DNA of 64,000 bases from Salarchaeum sp. JOR-1 (GTDB lineage Archaea > Halobacteriota > Halobacteria > Halobacteriales > Halobacteriaceae), in assembly GCF_007833275.1 (NCBI RefSeq), contig NZ_CP042241.1:1736001-1800000 (forward strand), written 5' to 3'. A program made the position numbers and the translations under genes. Every line of letters begins with the position of its first letter. Positions within the stretch are counted from its first letter, which is position 1. This document shows positions 2,963-13,274 of this stretch, one piece after another. The notes beneath the pieces were generated by a model, which was given only the letters and a program-made list of their open reading frames with translations, did not search any database and was not told where the DNA came from.

Positions 2963-3014
2963 CGTAGCGGAGTCCACATGAACACTATTGTGATTGCCCC
3001 GTTTTTGTGACACA

Positions 3015-3485
3015 ATGGCTCGCATCTGGATTACTAACGGGACGCCGACGATGCCCGGCCTGCTGAATCCGCTCGCTGCGGCGTGTGATAACGGCTATGT
3101 TCCGGATGAAGCGCGGATCCTCTCGAATCCCGGTGTTGCGGAGTCAGTCGCGGCCGCGAGCGACATGTTTGAGACGATCATTGATGCTCACGGTGGGGAT
3201 GCGGCTGTCTCGGAACACCGTCTCGAGACGGAGACGGATTTCCAGGGAATCATCGAGTTCTACCGGTCGGCCATTGAGGCCGCCCACGAGAACGGTGATG
3301 TGATTGCGGTCGATGTGACACCCGGTCGGAAGTTTATGTCTGCTATCGCGTTTCAAGCAGGCTTCCGATTCGGTGCCGACCACGTCTTCTACTTTTATCG
3401 GAAAAGCGGTGCGTACTATGGCGACCTCTACTCAGAGATCCCACGGACGGCGACCGAACTCATCGACTTCACGGAGGTCATGTGA
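3015..3485 (+). CDS. CARF-like nucleotide-sensor domain protein
   Basis: This is a 156-residue single-domain protein. The N-terminus has a beta strand running into a glycine/threonine turn (WITNGTPTMPGLLNPLAAA). The C-terminal half contains DVTPGRKFMSAIAFQAG followed by a hydrophobic strand (HVFYFY). This is the layout of CARF domains, whose signature is a D-x-T-G-G-x-K-x-M-S loop that binds cyclic oligoadenylates. Here the first glycine of the loop is proline. CARF proteins normally switch on nucleases during CRISPR type III or related responses. It lies 52 bases after the helicase gene and its stop overlaps the start of the PIN-like gene, so sensor and effector are probably made together. 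The ATG at 3015 was chosen over an upstream TTG. A short frame at 2978-3010 (10 codons) precedes it. The CARF call rests on motif reading only. Confidence 0.6.
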   Translation: MARIWITNGTPTMPGLLNPLAAACDNGYVPDEARILSNPGVAESVAAASDMFETIIDAHGGDAAVSEHRLETETDFQGIIEFYRSAIEAAHENGDVIAVDVTPGRKFMSAIAFQAGFRFGADHVFYFYRKSGAYYGDLYSEIPRTATELIDFTEVM

Positions 3486-4522
3486 TGCACGTCGCGCGCC
3501 GCCGTCTGATGGTCCTGCTGAACGCACTGTACGACCAGGGCGTCGATTCGATCCCCATCGAACATCCGTGCAACGATATTGGAGAACTGGTCAAGATCGA
3601 GTTGGAAGACAACGGGGAGGCGACGGTTCGGTTCACGCAGGGGTCGGTGACTTATCAAGACAACCGGGAGACGATCCCTGCGAAACACGGCGAGGCAGCC
3701 TACCAAGATCTACCGGACGCCCAGACGTACACCCGCATGATGGTCGCCAGCGGGCACGTCGAACTGAAGAACATCGATGAGGTCGTCGAATTCGTCAACC
3801 GCCACGGATATCCCGATCTAGAAGCCGGGAACGACCCCGTCGTCGTCGGTCTTGACGCAAATATCATGCCGTGGCGTCTCCCCGAGGTGCTTGACTTCGA
3901 CAGCGAAACGGGTGAGACAGACGGGAAGGGGCGGCGACCGACTAACGGCTATGCATTGGCGACGGGCGTCAAAGAGGAGCTTGACTGGCACTTCAAACAG
4001 GACAATACCCACGAACTCACCGCGGCGTTCGGCTCGGAATTCGAACGGCTCGACAACCAGCCAGCGGGAGCGAACCGTGAAGGATTGCTCGGGTTGTACG
4101 AGTATCGGCGGCTCCGCACAGATCGTATGGTTGACGTCGTCGAGAGTGACACTGGTGATGAGGCGATTATCGATGGGTATCGCAGATTCAACGATGAAAG
4201 CCAGAAGCAGGCGATTCTGTTCAGCAACGATCACGGGTTCGTTGAGCGTAGTATCGATGCGGGAGTCCCAGCTCAAACTGTCCAGTACCCGGTAGATATG
4301 CCGCGTACTGCGACCGGGTCGTGGACGCAAGCGGCCGAGTTACTGTACTATCTCGCTGTACTCTTCGGTGTTGTTGTCCTCCCGAAAGTAACGGTATATG
4401 GCGTGTGGAACGGGAAAGACGGTCGCCACTGGCAGCACGAACAAATCGATATCGATTGTCGAAGCCCGAAAACTGAAACGCAACTCGAACGGGATCTGAC
4501 TATTCTCGACGCGAAACCGTGA
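3485..4522 (+). CDS. PIN-like nuclease, probable effector of the CARF-like protein
   Basis: This 345-residue protein starts at an ATG that overlaps the upstream stop (TGATG), implying translational coupling. The first 120 residues have no recognised domain. A PIN-like core follows. VVVGLDANIMPW (about 121-132) gives the first acidic residue and GVKEELDW (about 162) supplies a glutamate. FSNDHGFVERSIDAGVPAQ (about 247) resembles the terminal strand and acidic turn of PIN domains. A hydrophobic stretch near 290-305 (LLYYLAVLFGVVVLP) could pack in the core or touch a membrane. PIN domains are metal-dependent ribonucleases. As the partner of a sensor protein it would plausibly cleave RNA when triggered. 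The family assignment is tentative, since only the acidic motifs can be seen. Confidence 0.5.
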   Translation: MHVARRRLMVLLNALYDQGVDSIPIEHPCNDIGELVKIELEDNGEATVRFTQGSVTYQDNRETIPAKHGEAAYQDLPDAQTYTRMMVASGHVELKNIDEVVEFVNRHGYPDLEAGNDPVVVGLDANIMPWRLPEVLDFDSETGETDGKGRRPTNGYALATGVKEELDWHFKQDNTHELTAAFGSEFERLDNQPAGANREGLLGLYEYRRLRTDRMVDVVESDTGDEAIIDGYRRFNDESQKQAILFSNDHGFVERSIDAGVPAQTVQYPVDMPRTATGSWTQAAELLYYLAVLFGVVVLPKVTVYGVWNGKDGRHWQHEQIDIDCRSPKTETQLERDLTILDAKP

Positions 4523-4808
4523 ATTCGGGCGTATTGATGCTGGTATTGAGCAGTTCAGTCTCACCCCTTGATAAAGGAGTAACCAGACGAATCACTACTT
4601 CAATTCATTCGCTTCAGGCGTATTCTCAGGAAACAGTGGGGGGAGTGCAATGACCCTTGGCTGACGAGCTACTACCTGTTTTTCGACTCAAATTTGCGTG
4701 CCTTTAACAGGCACAGAAGACTACATCAGTTGTAGAACGACTGTATATTGCATATCTGGAAGAATTCAATAAATAGATCCTGAGACCGGGATACTTCAGA
4801 ACAATAGT
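4523..4808. other. AT-rich intergenic spacer
   Basis: This is markedly AT-rich DNA separating the nuclease gene from the winged-helix gene. No open frame with coding character is seen. The segment just before 4809 (around 4745-4790) is A/T-dense and could hold the promoter of the downstream gene. Confidence 0.5.
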
Positions 4809-5186
4809 ATGAAAGACGTAGAATCACGACTCATACAACAGATCCTCGCGCATGATTCCGGAGTGTTGTCCGTTGAGGAGTTATCGTTCCGTAATACAGA
4901 TCTCACAGAGGGTCACATAGAAACGCATCTGCGCAGTCTCCATGATGATCGGATCGTCACGCCACTTCCTGCTGATCCGGAACAAGAGGGGATGCCAGAC
5001 GTCTTCTGGGCAGTCACCGATCACGGAGTCAGATGGTTAACAGATTCCGGGTTGTGGGAAGAAATTGAGGTGCTCTCTGAAGCCGACACCGCGCTCAATA
5101 GATCGCAACGGATCCGCGACATAGAGACATTTGATGGCCGCCCAGAACACACGTATGAGATGCTTCCCAGTGGTTCCTCTATGTGA
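4809..5186 (+). CDS. Small winged-helix DNA-binding protein
   Basis: This is a 125-residue acidic protein. Residues 1-60 form a helix-turn-helix of the MarR/PadR-like winged type: a first helix (ESRLIQQILAH), a recognition region around LTEGHIETHLRSLHDD, and a wing containing VFWAVTDHGVRWL. The C-terminal third (about 80-125) is charged and includes RSQRIRDIETFDGRPEHTY. It probably regulates transcription inside the island, but no ligand domain is present to suggest a signal. Base composition is AT-rich like its surroundings. It stands alone, with spacers of about 290 and 350 bases on either side. Confidence 0.6.
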   Translation: MKDVESRLIQQILAHDSGVLSVEELSFRNTDLTEGHIETHLRSLHDDRIVTPLPADPEQEGMPDVFWAVTDHGVRWLTDSGLWEEIEVLSEADTALNRSQRIRDIETFDGRPEHTYEMLPSGSSM

Positions 5187-5533
5187 ACAGATACGACGAT
5201 CCGCCAACCCCGCTCTCCGTCAAGGGTCGCGCTTGGCCTCTATTTGTGAGTTCTTGGATCCCCCGTAGTTACTCCAATACTACCAACTAATGCTCTACCT
5301 CCTTCTGCTCATATTCGATAGTTCATCTTCCGTGTTCCCGATGCGCTGCCGGCCGTAAACCACGTAGAAGTCGTGGCTCGGTGACTCGAATCGCCATGTC
5401 GAGGGTGGAGAGTTCCTTCGATCGGTCGTCAAAGATCATACTCTGAGAAATCATTATCACGATAAGACTTACGCCGACTTCTCGGTATCGACGACACCCT
5501 CACATTCATGAGCTGGTGACTGCTCTATGCGGT
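5187..5533. other. Intergenic region with a possible gene remnant on the minus strand
   Basis: No intact gene is seen. On the minus strand, around 5290-5420, a frame without a start reads WRFESPSHDFYVVYGRQRIG and ends soon after. It looks more like protein sequence than random translation and may be the tail of a decayed gene. The final 80 bases are AT-richer and probably contain the promoter for the nuclease-like gene. Confidence 0.3.
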
Positions 5534-6775
5534 ATGGCAAGTGCGGCGTCGCCGCTCTCGGAACCACGTGTGTTGGCACACGCGAAGCGCCGTCTGTTCC
5601 CCGACGACGCCGACGACGGGTACGCAGTAGTGGATACCCAGTTCTCTTCCGATCAGTGGCTCGCCAACGAGTCCATCGATTCGGACATCACGGATGAACT
5701 AGCGCCCTTCAACCACGTCCAGGTCGGCTCCGGTTATCCCGACCTCGTCGGCGTGCGTCTGTTGGGTGACGAACTACTGGCCGTGGACCGCCTCGGTGAT
5801 GACCCACCGCTAGTGGTCGTCGAAGCGAAAGGCCATACGAATCGGAGCGCCGCCGATGTCGAGCGCGGGATCGTCCAGGCGTACGACCGGCTCCACGAAG
5901 CGAACGCCGCGTACGTCGCAGCCCCGGCGGACACCGTCTCGCAGTCCGCCCGCACGCTCGCTCGTGAGCTGAACGTCGGCATCCTGGGCGTGACTCCCGA
6001 CGGCACCGTCGAGCCGGTCGAAACCCCGCGCGTCGTCGGGAACCGAACAACTACCGAAACGACGGCCATCCGATTCCAGGCCAGCGCACAGGGCGTCGCA
6101 GGGAAGTCGTTCGGCCTCAATCACCCGAAGAACTACCTCGCGTATCCACTCGCTGTCTACCACGACCGAGAAACGGAAGGGGTCCTTGCGGAGTACGTCG
6201 TGCGTGCCGTCGATGACGCCAGAACCGGGGCGGCCTTTTTGAATCTCATCGACGATCAACCCACCCAGACTCGGCTGACACCCCTCGGACGGGAGGTCGT
6301 CCGGTTCGCCCTCCGGGAATACGGGTCGGTCGATGCTGCGCTTCAGGTATTCGACGACTGGAAGCTCTCCCGGGAACGGTTCTGTGACCTGGCGCCGAAG
6401 TGGGGGATGCTCACCAGACGCGTCGTCTACGATTATCCGGCGACCCAGTTGCTCGTCGAGGAACTCCAGCACATGCACGAGGACGGGATCACCGAACCGA
6501 GCCTCCCTGACGTCGTCGAGTACCTCCACGAGTTGCATCCGTCGTTCACGATCGAATTGTTCGTCCGCGGAGACGACGACGTTCGGAGTCGAGTCCTGAA
6601 TGCCGACGGGGAGTTACAGCGAGATGCCCTTATAGACGGAAATATCTATCATTCGCCGACCGTGTTCCAGCTGAAGGCGATGCTGTATCACGCCGGGATC
6701 TTGACTTCGCGGGGCGCGGAACCGTCGAACCTCGAGCCACAGAGTGACGTCTGGGCATTACGCGAGTCGATATAG
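5534..6775 (+). CDS. Stand-alone PD-(D/E)XK nuclease-like protein
   Basis: This 413-residue protein was started at the ATG at 5534 rather than the GTG at 5516. The N-terminal 150 residues show a restriction-endonuclease-like fold signature. GYPDLVGVR (aspartate near residue 69) is followed by VVVEAKGH (glutamate and lysine near 96-98), the classical D...ExK metal site. The rest, from FQASAQGVAGKSFGLN onward, has no recognised domain but is rich in predicted helices (VVRFALREYGSVDAAL, VVEYLHELHPSF), which may form winged-helix or protein-contact domains. It probably cleaves or binds DNA, in keeping with an accessory or defence setting. It is not adjacent to a methyltransferase, so a classical restriction-modification pair is not supported. 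Confidence 0.6.
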   Translation: MASAASPLSEPRVLAHAKRRLFPDDADDGYAVVDTQFSSDQWLANESIDSDITDELAPFNHVQVGSGYPDLVGVRLLGDELLAVDRLGDDPPLVVVEAKGHTNRSAADVERGIVQAYDRLHEANAAYVAAPADTVSQSARTLARELNVGILGVTPDGTVEPVETPRVVGNRTTTETTAIRFQASAQGVAGKSFGLNHPKNYLAYPLAVYHDRETEGVLAEYVVRAVDDARTGAAFLNLIDDQPTQTRLTPLGREVVRFALREYGSVDAALQVFDDWKLSRERFCDLAPKWGMLTRRVVYDYPATQLLVEELQHMHEDGITEPSLPDVVEYLHELHPSFTIELFVRGDDDVRSRVLNADGELQRDALIDGNIYHSPTVFQLKAMLYHAGILTSRGAEPSNLEPQSDVWALRESI

Positions 6776-6933
6776 AGCTTGCGAGCGAACTAGCGGAGGA
6801 TTGTCTGTAGGTTCGAGATTCGCACTCCTAAGCCGATTATAGAAATGCACTCAGCACGGGCGTAATTCGATTCGGTTTCGCTTCTAAACGTGCTCGCCAA
6901 GCGTTATTACTCAATACACGAATTGTGAATTGT

Positions 6934-7518
6934 ATGTCGAAAGCCGCCGGAGATCCCGAGCGTGCCATCAACGGCCTCCTGTCGGTCGCCCAGCTCTTGG
7001 AGGAGCCACGGGAGGCGCGCCTCTACACGTTCGTCCTCCGAGAGGGGGAGGTCACTATTGACGACATCGTTGACGCATTAGAAATACCGCGAACGACCGC
7101 GTACTCGGACATGAGTACGCTCGTCGAACTTGGGGTGCTGATGCGAAATGAGGAACAGAAAACGCACACGTATTCGGCCGTTCCAATCACCCTCACCGTC
7201 AACCTCGACGGCGACGAGTATACTGTCACGCCAACCCTCATCGAGGCATTCGGACGCTCGCCCCGGGATCAGGATCTTGACCTCCTGCTCGAAAAGCACG
7301 GCCTGGGGAAGCTCGCAACCGCACTTACCTACGCGATCCCTTATGCTGAAGGCGAGATCTCGGAACGAGTGGCTGCCCGGGGACTCGACCTCCAGCACGC
7401 CTTCGCCATCGCCGTCTTGCAGGCCCTTCGGGAGGTCGTCCTCGACATGAAGGCAGTCGATCCGTACTTCGAGGATATGCAGAGTGCTCGCAGGCAATCC
7501 CCCGAGACAGAGGACTGA
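6934..7518 (+). CDS. Winged-helix transcriptional regulator of haloarchaeal type
   Basis: This is a 194-residue protein. Residues 25-75 form a helix-turn-helix (TIDDIVDALEIPRTTAYSDMSTLVELGVL) followed by a wing ending in THTYSAVPITLTV. A C-terminal helical domain (about 95-170) would serve dimerisation or ligand binding. The ATG at 6934 is preferred over the GTG at 6925. It follows the PD-(D/E)XK gene by about 160 bases on the same strand, so the two may form a regulated pair. It is the last gene before the tRNA-Glu fragment. Whether it controls the nuclease or the whole island cannot be read from the sequence. Confidence 0.65.
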   Translation: MSKAAGDPERAINGLLSVAQLLEEPREARLYTFVLREGEVTIDDIVDALEIPRTTAYSDMSTLVELGVLMRNEEQKTHTYSAVPITLTVNLDGDEYTVTPTLIEAFGRSPRDQDLDLLLEKHGLGKLATALTYAIPYAEGEISERVAARGLDLQHAFAIAVLQALREVVLDMKAVDPYFEDMQSARRQSPETED

Positions 7519-7890
7519 GGGGGAGCAGCGATGCGTGACCATTCATCTGATCCAGGAGGATGCCGTCGAACATGCAATCGCGTAGTTCGTAGAATCCATT
7601 GAGTAGCTAGTCGGCGGCCATCTATTGAGTTGAGCTATATGTTTGGCTGGTATTTTTCACTATAGTACATACCCTGAAAGTATTATCATGCTGTCTATTT
7701 CAGCAGAGGGCTCAACGTCGGGGTTGTTCTGTTGTTCGTTGCCCCACGAGGGTTTCGAGATTCCACTAGTCTCTCGTGGTCGGGTTTTCTCGATTGCCCC
7801 TGGGGCAAGTATCCGCCATTTTATGTATCTGGCCTCCGTTAGAGTTGGTTGTCACGGTAGGCAATCTAGGAAGGTCGGGGTTCGAGAGGG
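7519..7890. other. Intergenic region at the island edge
   Basis: An 84-codon open frame at 7643-7894 has neither recognisable domains nor haloarchaeal codon bias and was not accepted as a gene. At 7834-7839 a CTCCGT hexamer could pair with the acceptor bases of the tRNA fragment downstream, but the intervening sequence does not fold as a D arm. An imperfect hairpin TAGAGTTG/CAATCTA lies at about 7840-7868. Confidence 0.35.
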
Positions 7891-7925
7891 CTAGAACCGC
7901 CAGAAAGCGGCGACCTCTGTTCTAG
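7891..7925. repeat. Hairpin abutting the tRNA-Glu fragment
   Basis: CTAGAAC (7891-7897) and GTTCTAG (7919-7925) form a perfect 7-base-pair stem, with a small inner stem CCGC/GCGG in the loop. It ends exactly where the tRNA-like sequence begins. It could be an integrase or excisionase recognition site. Confidence 0.4.
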
Positions 7926-7968
7926 GCCTCTCACGGCAAGGACCAGGGTTCAAATCCCTGACGGAGCA
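7925..7968 (+). pseudogene. 3' half of a tRNA-Glu(CUC) gene, putative attachment-site scar
   Basis: The anticodon loop CTCTCAC (anticodon CUC) is followed by the 3' anticodon strand, a perfect T arm CAGGGTTCAAATCCCTG (7944-7960), acceptor strand ACGGAGC and discriminator A. These match the 3' half of haloarchaeal tRNA-Glu as I remember it. The 5' anticodon strand does not pair with the 3' strand, and no D arm or 5' acceptor strand is in place, so this cannot be an intact tRNA. Because the chromosome-like DNA is to the right, the full tRNA would be at the other end of the inserted element. Confidence 0.7.
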
Positions 7969-8568
7969 CTCCCATTCCTTCGCTGTCTTGCGATCTACCT
8001 GTTTCCTCGGTAAGCACGTTACACTGACTCGAATCGGGATTCACTCGGAGTGAGCGGCGTCGACGACAGCAGCGTCGTCACGGAACGATCAGCAGCACAA
8101 CTCAACGGACGCCAGTTCTACAGGCGGAGCAGGCCGAGTACCGCCGAGCGTGACCTCGGGCGTGCAGCCGTGACCCGCGACGCCGTTCGGGATTATCAGG
8201 CCGCTGGTCGCGTGGGCGTGTCCGATTAACCCACGGGAAGCCGCGGGGGTGTACGGGAGCCTCCGTCTTCCGTGATGACGAGACGCCAACGGCGTCTCGA
8301 ACCACTGCCCTCGAGGCGGTTCACGAACGCGCCCGGCAACAGCATTCAGCGAGGGGGAGTGGTACGCGTATGCGGGGTTGAGTTCGGGTTCGGTGACGGT
8401 GCCGCGGGTCTCGGTTTCGAATCGGTCGCCGTTCACGCGGTGGTGCAGACCGGTGACGGCGACGGCGCCGAGCGTATCGCCGCCGGGCGGTAACGCGTGC
8501 GGCGACCGATCTAGGCCGTCGGTGTTCTCCTCGTCGTTGGACGCGACGCCGCCGGCGAGCCCTCTGTG
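7969..8568. other. Degenerate region between the tRNA scar and the first core gene
   Basis: No intact gene is seen. On the minus strand from about 8568 to 8270 a frame without a good start reads like haloarchaeal protein (for example PPGGDTLGAVAVTGLHHRV and NGDRFETETRGTVTEPE) before losing coding character near 8250. This suggests the remains of a gene. A perfect 9-base-pair hairpin sits at 8279-8299. Confidence 0.35.
8279..8299. repeat. Perfect 9-bp hairpin
   Basis: CGAGACGCC (8279-8287) and GGCGTCTCG (8291-8299) pair perfectly around an AAC loop. It lies inside the degenerate stretch, so it may be a coincidental coding palindrome or a small RNA or termination element. Confidence 0.4.
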
Positions 8569-8802
8569 TTAGCGCTTGTGCGTGAAGATGAGCGCGCGGT
8601 CGGCATCGACGCCGACGCAGAAATCGAGTTGCTGGGAGAGGTTGAGGCTCGTGGGGTTCTCCTTGCAGACGACGAGGTCGTCGAACGGCTCGTCGCAGGC
8701 GGGGCAGGCGACCGAGACCGTGTTCTGGTAGGTTTTTAGCGCGCGGTTCTCCTCGCGCGGCGTCAGCGAGGCGGTGAGCTCGTCGAGTTCGATATCGTCC
8801 AT
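8569..8802 (-). CDS. Small zinc-binding haloarchaeal protein (DUF7385-like)
   Basis: This is a 77-residue acidic protein. CPACDEPF (about residues 31-38) and a later cysteine in VVCKENP form part of a zinc-ribbon-like knuckle. The C-terminus LDFCVGVDADRALIFTHKR matches what I recall of a small haloarchaeal family annotated DUF7385. The function is unknown. The ATG at 8802 is preferred to an in-frame GTG six bases upstream. It is the first convincing core gene to the right of the island boundary. Confidence 0.65.
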   Translation of the reverse strand: MDDIELDELTASLTPREENRALKTYQNTVSVACPACDEPFDDLVVCKENPTSLNLSQQLDFCVGVDADRALIFTHKR

Positions 8803-8844: not shown

Positions 8845-9783
8845 TTAGGGGTCTGGAAGGTCGTAGGAGGCGTCAGTGAGGTCTTCGGAGGCCGTCCAGA
8901 GTCGGCGCGCGGCGTTCTCGTCGTGGCTGCGTTCGCTCGACTCCTGCTGCCCGGGGTGGCCGCGCATGTTGAACAGTCCGGTCGGGCCGATGTACTCGCC
9001 GCCGTCGATATCCGGGTTCGTCGCGGCGTAGAGGAGCGGCCACGCGCCCTGTTCGGCGCTCTGCGCGAACACGGCGTTCGCGGCTTTCATGGCGAGCGTG
9101 CGGAGGCGGCTTCCTTCGGCTTCGGGGCCGCGGAGTTGGAGGTTGGTCGCGGCGTACCCGGGGTGGCAGGCGACGCTGGTGACGCTCGCGCCCGCCGTGC
9201 GGAGGCGGCGGTCGAGCTCGTACGCGAACAGGACGTTCGCGAGCTTCGACTGCGCGTACGCGGTCCACTTGTCGTAGTCGTCCTCGCTCTGGAGGTCGTC
9301 GAAGTCGATGCGGCCGCGCTCGTGCACACCGCTCGACTGGGTGACGACGCGGGACTCGTCGTTCGTCTGGCGGAGGACTGGGAGGAGGTGGGCGGTGAGC
9401 GCGAAGTGCCCGAGGTGGTTCACGCCGAACTGCGTCTCGAACCCCTGCGCGGTCTCCGAGCGCGGTATCGCCATGACGCCCGCGTTGTTCGCGAGGACGT
9501 GGAGCGCGTCGTACTCCGCGCGGTACCAGTCGGCGAACGCCCGGATCGAGTTGAGGTCGGCGAGGTCGAGGTCGCGTACGGTGAGGGACGCGCCCGGGTA
9601 CTCGGATTCGATCTCGCGTTTCGCGTCCCGGCCGCGGTCGGTGCTCCGGCACGCCATGACGACGTGCGCGCCGGCGGCGGCGAACGCCGTCGTCGCTTCG
9701 AACCCGATACCGCTGTTCGCGCCGGTGACGAGGACGGTCTTCCCGGCCTGTGAACTCATGTCGGCGGGTGTCCAGTCAGACAT
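8845..9783 (-). CDS. Short-chain dehydrogenase/reductase
   Basis: This is a 312-residue cytoplasmic oxidoreductase of the classical SDR type, closest in layout to retinol-dehydrogenase-like members. The nucleotide-binding TGANSGIG lies near residue 22, the structural NNAG near 100, the catalytic serine region TQSSGVHERG near 152, and the YAQSK tyrosine-lysine pair near 178. Basic residues after the second strand (CRSTDRGRDAK) point to NADP(H). The start was set at the ATG at 9783, because upstream residues (WRASIRRR) do not resemble SDRs. The substrate cannot be assigned. The RND exporter gene diverges from it across about 140 bases. Confidence 0.85.
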   Translation of the reverse strand: MSDWTPADMSSQAGKTVLVTGANSGIGFEATTAFAAAGAHVVMACRSTDRGRDAKREIESEYPGASLTVRDLDLADLNSIRAFADWYRAEYDALHVLANNAGVMAIPRSETAQGFETQFGVNHLGHFALTAHLLPVLRQTNDESRVVTQSSGVHERGRIDFDDLQSEDDYDKWTAYAQSKLANVLFAYELDRRLRTAGASVTSVACHPGYAATNLQLRGPEAEGSRLRTLAMKAANAVFAQSAEQGAWPLLYAATNPDIDGGEYIGPTGLFNMRGHPGQQESSERSHDENAARRLWTASEDLTDASYDLPDP

Positions 9784-9926
9784 ACGTCGTCGTATGCTCG
9801 CGCGCCACATAGGCCCGTGGCCCGACTGGGGGCGTGTCGGTTCCAGAAAGGATATGTACCGAACGCTACTGGATACGAACGAGTGAGACTTGTGAGTACC
9901 TTCCTACTGACAACGGCGGTGGTTGG

Positions 9927-12900
9927 ATGAGTCGGTTCGACCGCCTCGTCACCGCCGTCACCGACCACAGCAAGGCCGCGATAGCGATCATGGTGCTGTT
10001 GACGGTCGTCGTCGGCGCCGGCGCGCCGATGGTCGAGCAGTCGTCGTCGCTCAGCCAGTTCCAGAGCGACACGACGGAGTCCCAGAAGCTCGACTACATC
10101 CAGGAGAACTTCCAGACCGGCGACCAGAACACGACGACCGTCCAGATAATCATGCGCGGGGAGAACGTCCTCGCGAAAGAACAGCTCCTCGACAGTCTCG
10201 CCCTCCAGCAGTCCATCCGGACGAACGAGACCGTCGCGCCCTCGCTCGTGAACAACTCGCCGACGACGGGCGTGGCGAACATCGTCGCGATAACGGCGAT
10301 CCGCCAGGAGCAAGCGGCCGACATCGAACAGCGGCGGCAGGTTCTGAACGAGACCGCGGCGGAGCTCCGGCGCGCGCTCACTGCCCTCCGCCAGAACCCG
10401 AACGCGTCCATCGAGGCGGCGTTCACCGACGTGCGCGCGAGCACGGCCGTCGAACTGAACGACACGGACTACGCGACGTTCGAGGCGGCGGCCCAACAGC
10501 TCCGGAACGCCTCCAGCGAACAGGCCGTCCAGCAGGCGTACACGCTCGGCACGCGCGGCGTGCTCGCGGAGGAGTACGCCGCCCTCCAGGAGCGCGCGAA
10601 CGCCCTCCGGAACGCTGAGACGCCGCCGCTGGCGGAGCAGAAGAACCAGCTGAGATCGATGAACGCGAGCGCGGTCGAATCGCTCGTCACCACCGTTCTC
10701 CAGAACGGGAACGGCGGGAGCGGCGGCGGCGTGCTCGCGTTGATGCCGACCGACTACGAGACCGGGAGCGCGTCCGCGGAGGCGACGATGATCGTCGTCA
10801 CGCAGACCGCGCAGAGCGACAGCGAGATGGGGTCGGCGAGCGACCGGCTCGTCGAGACCCAGACGGCGATGCAGGAAATCGCCAACTCCCGGAGTGACGG
10901 GAACACCTACATGGTGTTCGGGCCGGGCATTATCGCCCAAGAGATCACGCAGTCCATGACGGACAGCGTGCTCATCGTCGGCCCGCTCGCGCTCATCTTC
11001 GTCCTCCTCACGCTCGTCATCGCGTACCGCGACCTCCTCGATATCGCGCTCGGCCTCACCGGCATCGTCGCGGTGCTCGTGTGGACGTTCGGCTTCATGG
11101 GCTGGGCGGACATCGCGTTCAACCAGATCTTCATCGCGGTGCCCGTGCTGCTCATCGGGCTGAGCATCGACTACGCGATACACATCTTCATGCGACACCG
11201 CGAGGAACGCGAAGCGGTCGGTGAGGGGCCGCGCGGGTCGATGCGGGTCGCGCTCGCCGGCGTCGGCGTCGCCCTCGTCTGGGTGACTGCGACGACCGTC
11301 ATCGGGTTCCTCTCGAACCTCGTCAGCCCGCTCCCGCCGATTCAGGACTTCGGCATCGTCAGCTCCGTCGGTATCACCGCCGCGCTCCTCGTGTTCGGCG
11401 TGCTGATTCCCGCGCTGAAGGTCGAGCTCGACGAGTTCCTCGAATCCCGCGGGTTCGACCGGAAGAAGCGCGCGTTCGGAACGGGCGGCGGCCGCCTCGG
11501 GAAGGCACTCACGGTCGGCAGCACGGCGGCGAAGAAGTCGCCGTGGCTCGTCATCCTGTTCGCCGTCCTCCTCAGCGCCGGCGGCGCGTACGGCGCGACA
11601 CAGGTGGACACCTCGTTCAGCCAGACCGACTTCATCGCGGAGGATCCGCCGGCGTGGATGGAAGACCTTCCGGAGCCGTTCAAACCGCACGACTACACGG
11701 CGAAGGAGAACCTCCAGTACGTCAACGAGAACTTCCTCCGGCAGGACTCGCAAGCGCAGATACTGATACAGGGAGCGGTGGCGAGCGACACCGCGCTCGA
11801 ACGCCTCCACGACGCCCAGCAGGCCGCAGAGCAGAAGAACGTCACCGTCGAGCTCTCCGGCGGCGAGGCCGCTATCACCAGTCCGCTCACGGTGATGGAG
11901 CAGGTCGCGGCGCAGAACGAGACGTTCAATCAGACGTACACCGCCGCCGACACCGACGGGAACGGCGTCCCCGACCGGAACGTCGAAGCCGTCTACGACG
12001 CGCTGTTCGCCGTCGCGCCCGACCAGGCGAACGGCGTCATCCACCGCACGTCCCCCGACGACTACCAGGCGCTCCGGATGGTCGTCTCCGTCCAAGGCGG
12101 CGCGTCCGGCGAAGCGGTCACCGAACAGATGCGCGCCGTCGCGGCGGTCATAGAGGGCGGCGGCCTCACCGCGACCGCGACCGGGCAGAGCATCCTGTTC
12201 AAAATCGTTCAAGACCAGCTCCTCGAAACCGTCATCGAGAGCCTCCTCGTGACCCTGGTCGCCATCGTCGTCTTCCTGATGGCGGCCTACCGTCTCACCG
12301 AGGGGAGCGCGACGCTCGGCCTCGTCACCTTACTCCCCGTCGTGTTCAGCGTCGCGTGGATTCTCGGGACGATGTACCTCGCGGGAATCCCGTTCAACGT
12401 CCTCACGGGGATGATCACGAGCCTCACGGTCGGACTCGGGGTGGCGTACAGCATCCACTTGAGCGAGCGGTACAACCAGGAACTCGAACGCCGCGGAAAC
12501 GCGTTCGACGCCCTCACCGTCGCACTCAAGGGAACCGGCGGCGCCCTCCTCGGGAGCGCCGCGACCACCGTCGGCGGGTTCGGCGTGCTCGTCTTCGCCG
12601 TGCTCCCGCCGCTCCAGCAGTTCGGCATCATCACGGGCATGACCATCATCTACGCGTTCCTCGCGGCCGTGCTCGTCCTCCCGAGCCTCCTCGTCGTCTG
12701 GACGCGGTACACCAACCCGCTCGGCGGCGACGAGTTCGAGAACGGCGACGACGCCGAGACCGCAGTCGATATCGGCGAGGGCGCCGACGCGCCGACTCGC
12801 GAGGCGTCGCCACGGTTCGTTCAGCCTGGCGGCGAGGCGACGGTCGTCGTCCACCTCCCCGACGTCGCGGGGCGCGCGCTCCTCCGCGAGGACGCGCCCG

Positions 12901-13274
12901 TCAGCTCCCTCGACCACGTCGACCCCGAACCGCTCAACACCACGGTCACCGATGGCACGCTGTACGCCGTCTGGGAGACCGCGGAGCCGACGCCGGCGCG
13001 CGTCGAGTACACCGTCTCCGTCCCGGGGGACGCCCAGGACAACGAGACCGTGCGCTTCGCCGGCGAACTCCGCACTCCGCGCGGCGCGACGAGCGTCGAG
13101 GGCGACGGGTTCGTCACCGTCGTCAGCGACGTGTTCGAACGCATCGTCAGCGAGGGCGAAGTCAGCCGGCAAGACCTCGCGCTCGCCGCCCAGCAACTGG
13201 AAGCGGGCGCGCTGTCGCCCGAGCAGTACGAACGCATCCACGAACAGTGGCTGAACCAGAACCAGGACGAATGA
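9927..13274 (+). CDS. RND-superfamily (MMPL/SSD-type) membrane exporter
   Basis: This is a 1115-residue protein with two repeats. Each has one N-terminal membrane helix, a large extracellular domain and a bundle of five helices. The first bundle starts at about residue 345 (VLIVGPLALIFVLLTLVIAY) and the second at about 765. The motifs GLSIDYAIHIFMRHREE and GLGVAYSIHLSERYNQE are the conserved proton-relay helices of the MMPL family. The extracellular domains are rich in Gln, Asn and Ala. The last 190 residues are a soluble acidic tail. It probably exports lipids or hydrophobic compounds using the proton gradient. The start at 9927 removes an implausible leader. It shares an ATGA overlap with the TrmB gene. 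Confidence 0.88.
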   Translation: MSRFDRLVTAVTDHSKAAIAIMVLLTVVVGAGAPMVEQSSSLSQFQSDTTESQKLDYIQENFQTGDQNTTTVQIIMRGENVLAKEQLLDSLALQQSIRTNETVAPSLVNNSPTTGVANIVAITAIRQEQAADIEQRRQVLNETAAELRRALTALRQNPNASIEAAFTDVRASTAVELNDTDYATFEAAAQQLRNASSEQAVQQAYTLGTRGVLAEEYAALQERANALRNAETPPLAEQKNQLRSMNASAVESLVTTVLQNGNGGSGGGVLALMPTDYETGSASAEATMIVVTQTAQSDSEMGSASDRLVETQTAMQEIANSRSDGNTYMVFGPGIIAQEITQSMTDSVLIVGPLALIFVLLTLVIAYRDLLDIALGLTGIVAVLVWTFGFMGWADIAFNQIFIAVPVLLIGLSIDYAIHIFMRHREEREAVGEGPRGSMRVALAGVGVALVWVTATTVIGFLSNLVSPLPPIQDFGIVSSVGITAALLVFGVLIPALKVELDEFLESRGFDRKKRAFGTGGGRLGKALTVGSTAAKKSPWLVILFAVLLSAGGAYGATQVDTSFSQTDFIAEDPPAWMEDLPEPFKPHDYTAKENLQYVNENFLRQDSQAQILIQGAVASDTALERLHDAQQAAEQKNVTVELSGGEAAITSPLTVMEQVAAQNETFNQTYTAADTDGNGVPDRNVEAVYDALFAVAPDQANGVIHRTSPDDYQALRMVVSVQGGASGEAVTEQMRAVAAVIEGGGLTATATGQSILFKIVQDQLLETVIESLLVTLVAIVVFLMAAYRLTEGSATLGLVTLLPVVFSVAWILGTMYLAGIPFNVLTGMITSLTVGLGVAYSIHLSERYNQELERRGNAFDALTVALKGTGGALLGSAATTVGGFGVLVFAVLPPLQQFGIITGMTIIYAFLAAVLVLPSLLVVWTRYTNPLGGDEFENGDDAETAVDIGEGADAPTREASPRFVQPGGEATVVVHLPDVAGRALLREDAPVSSLDHVDPEPLNTTVTDGTLYAVWETAEPTPARVEYTVSVPGDAQDNETVRFAGELRTPRGATSVEGDGFVTVVSDVFERIVSEGEVSRQDLALAAQQLEAGALSPEQYERIHEQWLNQNQDE

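Follow-up and report, generated by a model that had tools for sequence, protein, structure and literature searches.

A 2011 study of haloarchaea described, for Haloferax volcanii, Halogeometricum borinquense and Natrialba magadii, a complete tRNA-Glu gene adjoined by an HF2-related integrase gene, with a truncated copy of the tRNA 5–48 kb downstream, and termed the arrangement typical of integrative prophages (PMC3119063). More generally, 2083 of 3919 catalogued tDNA islands use the anticodon region of their target (PMC4383910). Tyrosine integrases, as a rule, cross over in the anticodon loop; among them, the HSTV2 family takes in proteins that are at least 30% identical to its members over 60% of their length (PMC8371274).

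Here, we analyse a window of 64,000 nucleotides (C2:1736001-1800000) from a haloarchaeal genome of 2.52 Mb in two contigs. We read a tRNA fragment in this window, with a probability of about 0.96, as attR, the far end of an 89.9-kb element (C2:1654053 to 1743926) integrated site-specifically into tRNA-Glu(CUC). Like the islands reported in 2011 (PMC3119063), the locus has an integrase adjoining a complete tRNA-Glu and a truncated downstream copy, but it differs from them in its length of 89.9 kb, its defence-dominated cargo and its two related integrase genes lying side by side. It also has the makings of an Islander-type tDNA island (PMC4383910) as judged from its sequence, with an intact tDNA, a displaced 3' fragment downstream in the same orientation, an anticodon-centred site and integrase genes inside the island, two of them with PF00589 at the tRNA end; unlike those islands, it comes without an empty site for comparison, and a trace of a second element lies to the right of the fragment. 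The arrangement as such has been known since 2011, and what is notable here, with good support, is the size of the island, its unusually large defence load and its common ends with exchanged cargo.

The tRNA-Glu(CUC) fragment and its flanks

The fragment (CCTCTCACGGCAAGGACCAGGGTTCAAATCCCTGACGGAGCA; Table 1) runs from the base preceding the anticodon loop to the final base ahead of the CCA end. It comprises the anticodon loop CTCTCAC of tRNA-Glu(CUC) and its T arm, together with the 3' strands of the anticodon and acceptor stems. An earlier note on this DNA had recognised the loop, the T arm and the acceptor strand, and the whole fragment matches the 3' part of an intact gene exactly. The 5' half is missing, as the note had also said: ARAGORN called no tRNA in the window, and Rfam gave only chance matches at the fragment region. 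The note had placed the fragment at 7925–7968, which holds for 7927–7968 but not for the GG at 7925–7926, absent from the intact tRNA; at the other end, the CT at 7969–7970 also equals the intact copy, giving a shared block of 44 bp.

A search of the whole genome with the 42-bp pattern, allowing up to 3 mismatches, returned two copies, the fragment and the intact gene, both exact and both on the plus strand, and the reversed pattern used as a control gave 0 matches. By chance, an exact 42-mer would be expected elsewhere in 2.5 Mb only ~3e-19 times. From the last base of the intact tRNA to that of the fragment, the distance on the same strand is 89,916 bp. The intact gene lies to the left and is followed by an integrase gene (PF00589), and no third tRNA-Glu copy was found between the two. 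The intact upstream gene, its neighbouring integrase and the exact direct repeat of the 3' tRNA sequence are what the earlier note had led us to look for, and the same-strand repeat, the adjoining integrase and a contrast in G+C content support its proposal of a distal attachment site of a tRNA-integrating element.

Table 1 Features of the island, its attachment regions and its flanks. Window positions are counted from C2:1736001.
Feature	Window	Contig C2	Strand	Details
Intact tRNA-Glu(CUC)		1653978-1654052	+	Sole one in the genome; 51.2 bits to RF00005
First integrase gene (tyrosine recombinase)			points away from tRNA	368 aa, no stop; PF00589, 1.1e-14; starts 236 bp after intact tRNA
Second PF00589 gene			opposite to first integrase	426 aa; next after first integrase and ~37% identical to it
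Type 1 BREX, all six genes		1683007-1697634	-	
Argonaute gene run	ends in 1-2962	1725770-1738962		
UvrD-like helicase fused to PD-(D/E)XK nuclease, 3' part	1-2962	1735507-1738962	+	End of Argonaute run; Pfam UvrD-helicase 1.7e-60, PDDEXK_1 8e-25
Small ORFs	2994-5186		+	163 aa (sub-threshold Cas_NE0113), 346 aa and 125 aa; no informative family match
419-aa island protein, no assigned function	5516-6775		+	71% DNA relative just outside the Halosimplex element
TrmB-like/DUF7437 regulator	6925-7518		+	Last island gene ahead of fragment; Pfam
Right arm of attachment region	7593-7926		+	Element-borne, not host DNA, by Halosimplex similarity; rich in inverted repeats
14-nt inverted repeat	7884-7932		+	93% complementary; reaches into tRNA core; inner stem GCTAGAAC...GTTCTAGGC
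Displaced tRNA-Glu(CUC) 3' fragment, island attR	7927-7968	1743927-1743968	+	Exact copy of 3' part of intact gene
DNA without congener counterpart	7971-8569			Congener homology begins at ~8570
Partial copy of 27-base motif	7981-8007		+	First half of motif; score 5.8, shuffle p = 0.013; offset +13 as at true attL sites
Core flank	8845-13274			Short-chain dehydrogenase (-), 1146-aa ORF (+); collinear with congener, 90% DNA identity

The G+C content of the island is 57.1%, 11 points below that of its flanks (67.7% and 68.9%), which together with its defence-type cargo bears out the description of AT-rich accessory genes to the left of the fragment. In a genome of the same genus (G001), which has a single tRNA-Glu, the left flank is 86–91% identical as far as this gene; the right flank, at 90% identity, starts at the point equal to window 8570. 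Between these flanks, the congener carries 72.8 kb (G001:C1:1230889-1303699) without a protein match to the island. Because the congener has the same flanks without the island genes, these genes are not core, in line with the earlier reading of them as accessory. The comparison with a related strain lacking the island, which the note had suggested, holds in so far as this one congener lacks the island genes, but its 72.8 kb of other DNA rules it out as a clean empty site. No truly empty site was found among the genomes examined; such a site is predicted to have tRNA-Glu followed directly by CTCCCATTCCTTCGCTG, with no island. In family-level relatives, the right-flank gene is not kept beside the tRNA. 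Several blocks in the congener's interval match the second contig (C1) of the genome under study, at up to 90%, indicating that the chromosome and the second replicon have probably swapped large DNA blocks.

To the right of the fragment, the core genes that had been proposed are indeed syntenic with those of the congener, but this synteny starts at about window 8570, some 600 bp further on, and not at 7969. The 1146-aa ORF in this flank is probably a membrane transporter. The stretch in between (7971–8569) is most likely all that is left, ~600 bp, of a decayed element that occupied this tRNA earlier or in tandem; tblastx gave no match to a decayed integrase in window 7969–8600.

Integrases and the exchange point

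The first integrase shares 49.6% identity over 98% with its counterpart in the virus HSTV-2, and is similar to those of other haloviruses too, with PF00589 as its only Pfam domain. In an alignment of 25 sequences, R217, K245, R321, H343 and Y352 are invariant or nearly so, and would form the active site; the lone exception at R217 is the second integrase, where the alignment is possibly shifted. By its identity, its single domain and these conserved residues, the protein falls within the HSTV2 family (PMC8371274), with which it also shares a haloarchaeal host, but its carrier here is a defence island and not a recognisable virus. No relatives of the integrase were confirmed in viral contigs. 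Another integrase in this genome (C2:1338058-1339137), 52% identical to that of the island, lies beside a tRNA gene (C2:1337766-1337847), and probably represents a second tRNA-targeted element.

At 40 loci with relatives of the integrase, ARAGORN located a tRNA adjoining or near the gene in 34. The tRNA beside the integrase relative was tRNA-Glu at 28 of the 40 loci (with a CUC anticodon in 26 of those 28), and this choice of target is characteristic of the integrase family. In 10 of the 31 integrase-bearing genomes searched, the 3' sequence is present twice on the same strand of one contig, 5–142 kb apart, and the relatives G009 and G013 have this arrangement as well. In a 987-kb record of Natrinema thermotolerans (CP031304), 240 kb separate a related integrase from a same-strand tRNA-Glu 3' copy of 93% identity. 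In Halomicrobium katesii as in Halobellus rarus, the displaced tRNA fragment has the same 48 bases on its left, which makes a second instance of an element end present in two genera.

Comparison of 16 intact and displaced pairs showed agreement at 655 of 656 positions over a 41-nt block that extends from the first base of the anticodon loop to the 3' end. On the 5' side of the loop, agreement drops to near-chance levels, with two exceptions: a G located three bases ahead of the loop (15/16) and the base directly ahead of it (13/16). Since identity begins at about the first loop base in all these pairs, we place the left edge of the exchange within the anticodon loop or at its border. No right edge can be read from the sequences, given that the element has to restore the tRNA.

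On its integrase side, the intact tRNA-Glu is followed at a distance of 12–13 bases (24 in one case) by a 27-base motif (consensus CGCCGTCTTGTGGTTTTGGCCCGTGAA) at 28 of 28 integrase-bearing sites tested, whose own scores are not independent because the motif was learned from them. Of 6 sites at which no integrase was detected, 1 has the same motif. The motif is possibly an integrase arm site or a tRNA terminator.

Shared ends and exchanged cargo

A counterpart of the island is present in another genus, in Halosimplex aquaticum (NZ_CP118158), where 45.6 kb separate the two tRNA copies. The left module, from the tRNA through both integrases (2.8 kb), is 96.3% identical in the two genomes (99% and 97% for the integrase proteins), whereas core genes of the left flank are only ~71–85% identical, and because of this difference the left module was probably shared recently by horizontal transfer. 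At the other end, identity is 83% between C2:1743593-1743978 and the last part of the Halosimplex element (387 bp ending at its displaced copy), and a 38-nt hairpin (7890–7927) is identical in the Halosimplex attR. Out of 391 sampled genomes, H. aquaticum gave the sole match to window 7690–7926, which is absent from the other 390. The hairpin had zero exact matches in viral contigs, and a comparison of the right arm with plasmids matched in the tRNA part only. The predicted RNA fold of the right arm beats that of shuffled sequences (z = -3.3), a signal that may simply reflect protein-binding inverted repeats.

While the integrase pair, right arm and hairpin are alike, the Halosimplex element is half as long and its cargo is almost wholly different, the exception being one 1.65-kb block at 82% identity. 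Because H. aquaticum combines the same two ends with different cargo, the sequence to the left of the fragment belongs to the element.

The six-gene set brxA, brxB, brxC, pglX, pglZ and brxL, which defines BREX type 1, is complete in the island. Other genes encode a TmtA-like protein of 1647 aa, an AspBHI-like restriction protein, an Mrr-type nuclease, an SbcD/SbcC-like pair and an EVE-AAA protein. A long Argonaute (883 aa) is followed by a PLD-type protein, a match-less protein, a PD-(D/E)XK nuclease and a UvrD-PD-(D/E)XK protein, and this gene run possibly acts as a separate defence system. Nine other haloarchaea of the sample have the Argonaute (~86% identical) flanked by PLD-type (93%) and divergent AAA/DUF4143 (~82%) proteins; it is absent from the congener, and the PLD gene is still found downstream of Argonautes that are 35% identical. 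A single ORF of 3266 aa (C2:1711106-1720906), with a match to PDC-S37, contains ResIII/helicase, homing-endonuclease-type repeats, DUF4011, AAA helicase and REase_MTES_1575 nuclease regions. The genes at C2:1677395-1682669 encode an HNH protein and an RNase H-like exonuclease, include a weak Cmr3-like match, and possibly constitute an unassigned nuclease or CRISPR-like system. No conjugation, replication or virion genes were noticed among the island proteins examined.

Proposed integration at tRNA-Glu and its alternatives

We propose that an attP carrying the 3' half of tRNA-Glu(CUC) would have recombined with the chromosomal tRNA gene, the recombinase most likely being the element's own HSTV2-type tyrosine recombinase next to the rebuilt tRNA. 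Exchange in or beside the 7-base anticodon loop would have produced a rebuilt tRNA with a host 5' half and an element 3' half, while the host's own 3' half would have ended up 90 kb further right, as the present window 7927–7968. The sequence itself shows the two copies with their order and strand, the integrase, the element ends common to another genus and the start of the identity block at the loop. We infer the direction of the event, as well as the exact cleavage positions and an integrase that is still active.

The fragment could instead derive from a different, older element at the same tRNA, with the 90 kb a composite of nested or tandem insertions. tRNA-Glu is a repeat target, a strong copy of the 27-base motif following 8 of 18 displaced fragments, as expected of tandem elements; at our locus, part of the motif is present in the 600 bp that follow the fragment, for which the congener has no counterpart, and G+C varies between 51 and 62% inside the island. 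Because the island is very large and of mixed G+C, its cargo may have grown by several events. A composite origin of the two ends is nonetheless unlikely, as there is no third tRNA copy between them, and Halosimplex pairs the sequence to the left of the fragment with the same integrase module, assigning both ends to one element type.

The likeness of the integrase to those of HSTV-2 and other haloviruses would also fit an integrated virus in the strict sense, but we regard such a provirus as highly improbable, given that a comparison of 43 island proteins with PHROGs (best 25 of 79 families) gave no capsid, portal or terminase match, and that the cargo consists of restriction, BREX, Argonaute and nuclease genes. 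We give next to no weight to the idea that the fragment is a functional half of a split tRNA gene, or a duplicated tRNA pseudogene unrelated to integration: its T arm and 3' acceptor strand are perfect, but an intact tRNA-Glu(CUC) is present in the same genome, and displaced copies starting at about the same base accompany this integrase family in 15 other genomes.

Integration into tRNA-Glu(CUC) with the fragment as attR remains our preferred reading, and it defines the two ends of this 90-kb defence island with single-base precision, making its mobility directly testable. For this integrase group, the 16 matched pairs of attachment sites put the exchange point in or beside the anticodon loop. 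Conserved ends (the integrase pair and a 330-nt structured arm) might move between haloarchaeal genera while the defence cargo is almost wholly replaced, acting as an immune-system shuttle at tRNA-Glu, an idea that we put forward tentatively and to which we give somewhat less than even odds. The occurrence of the same element ends in two genera with differing cargo bears on how defence genes spread in haloarchaea.
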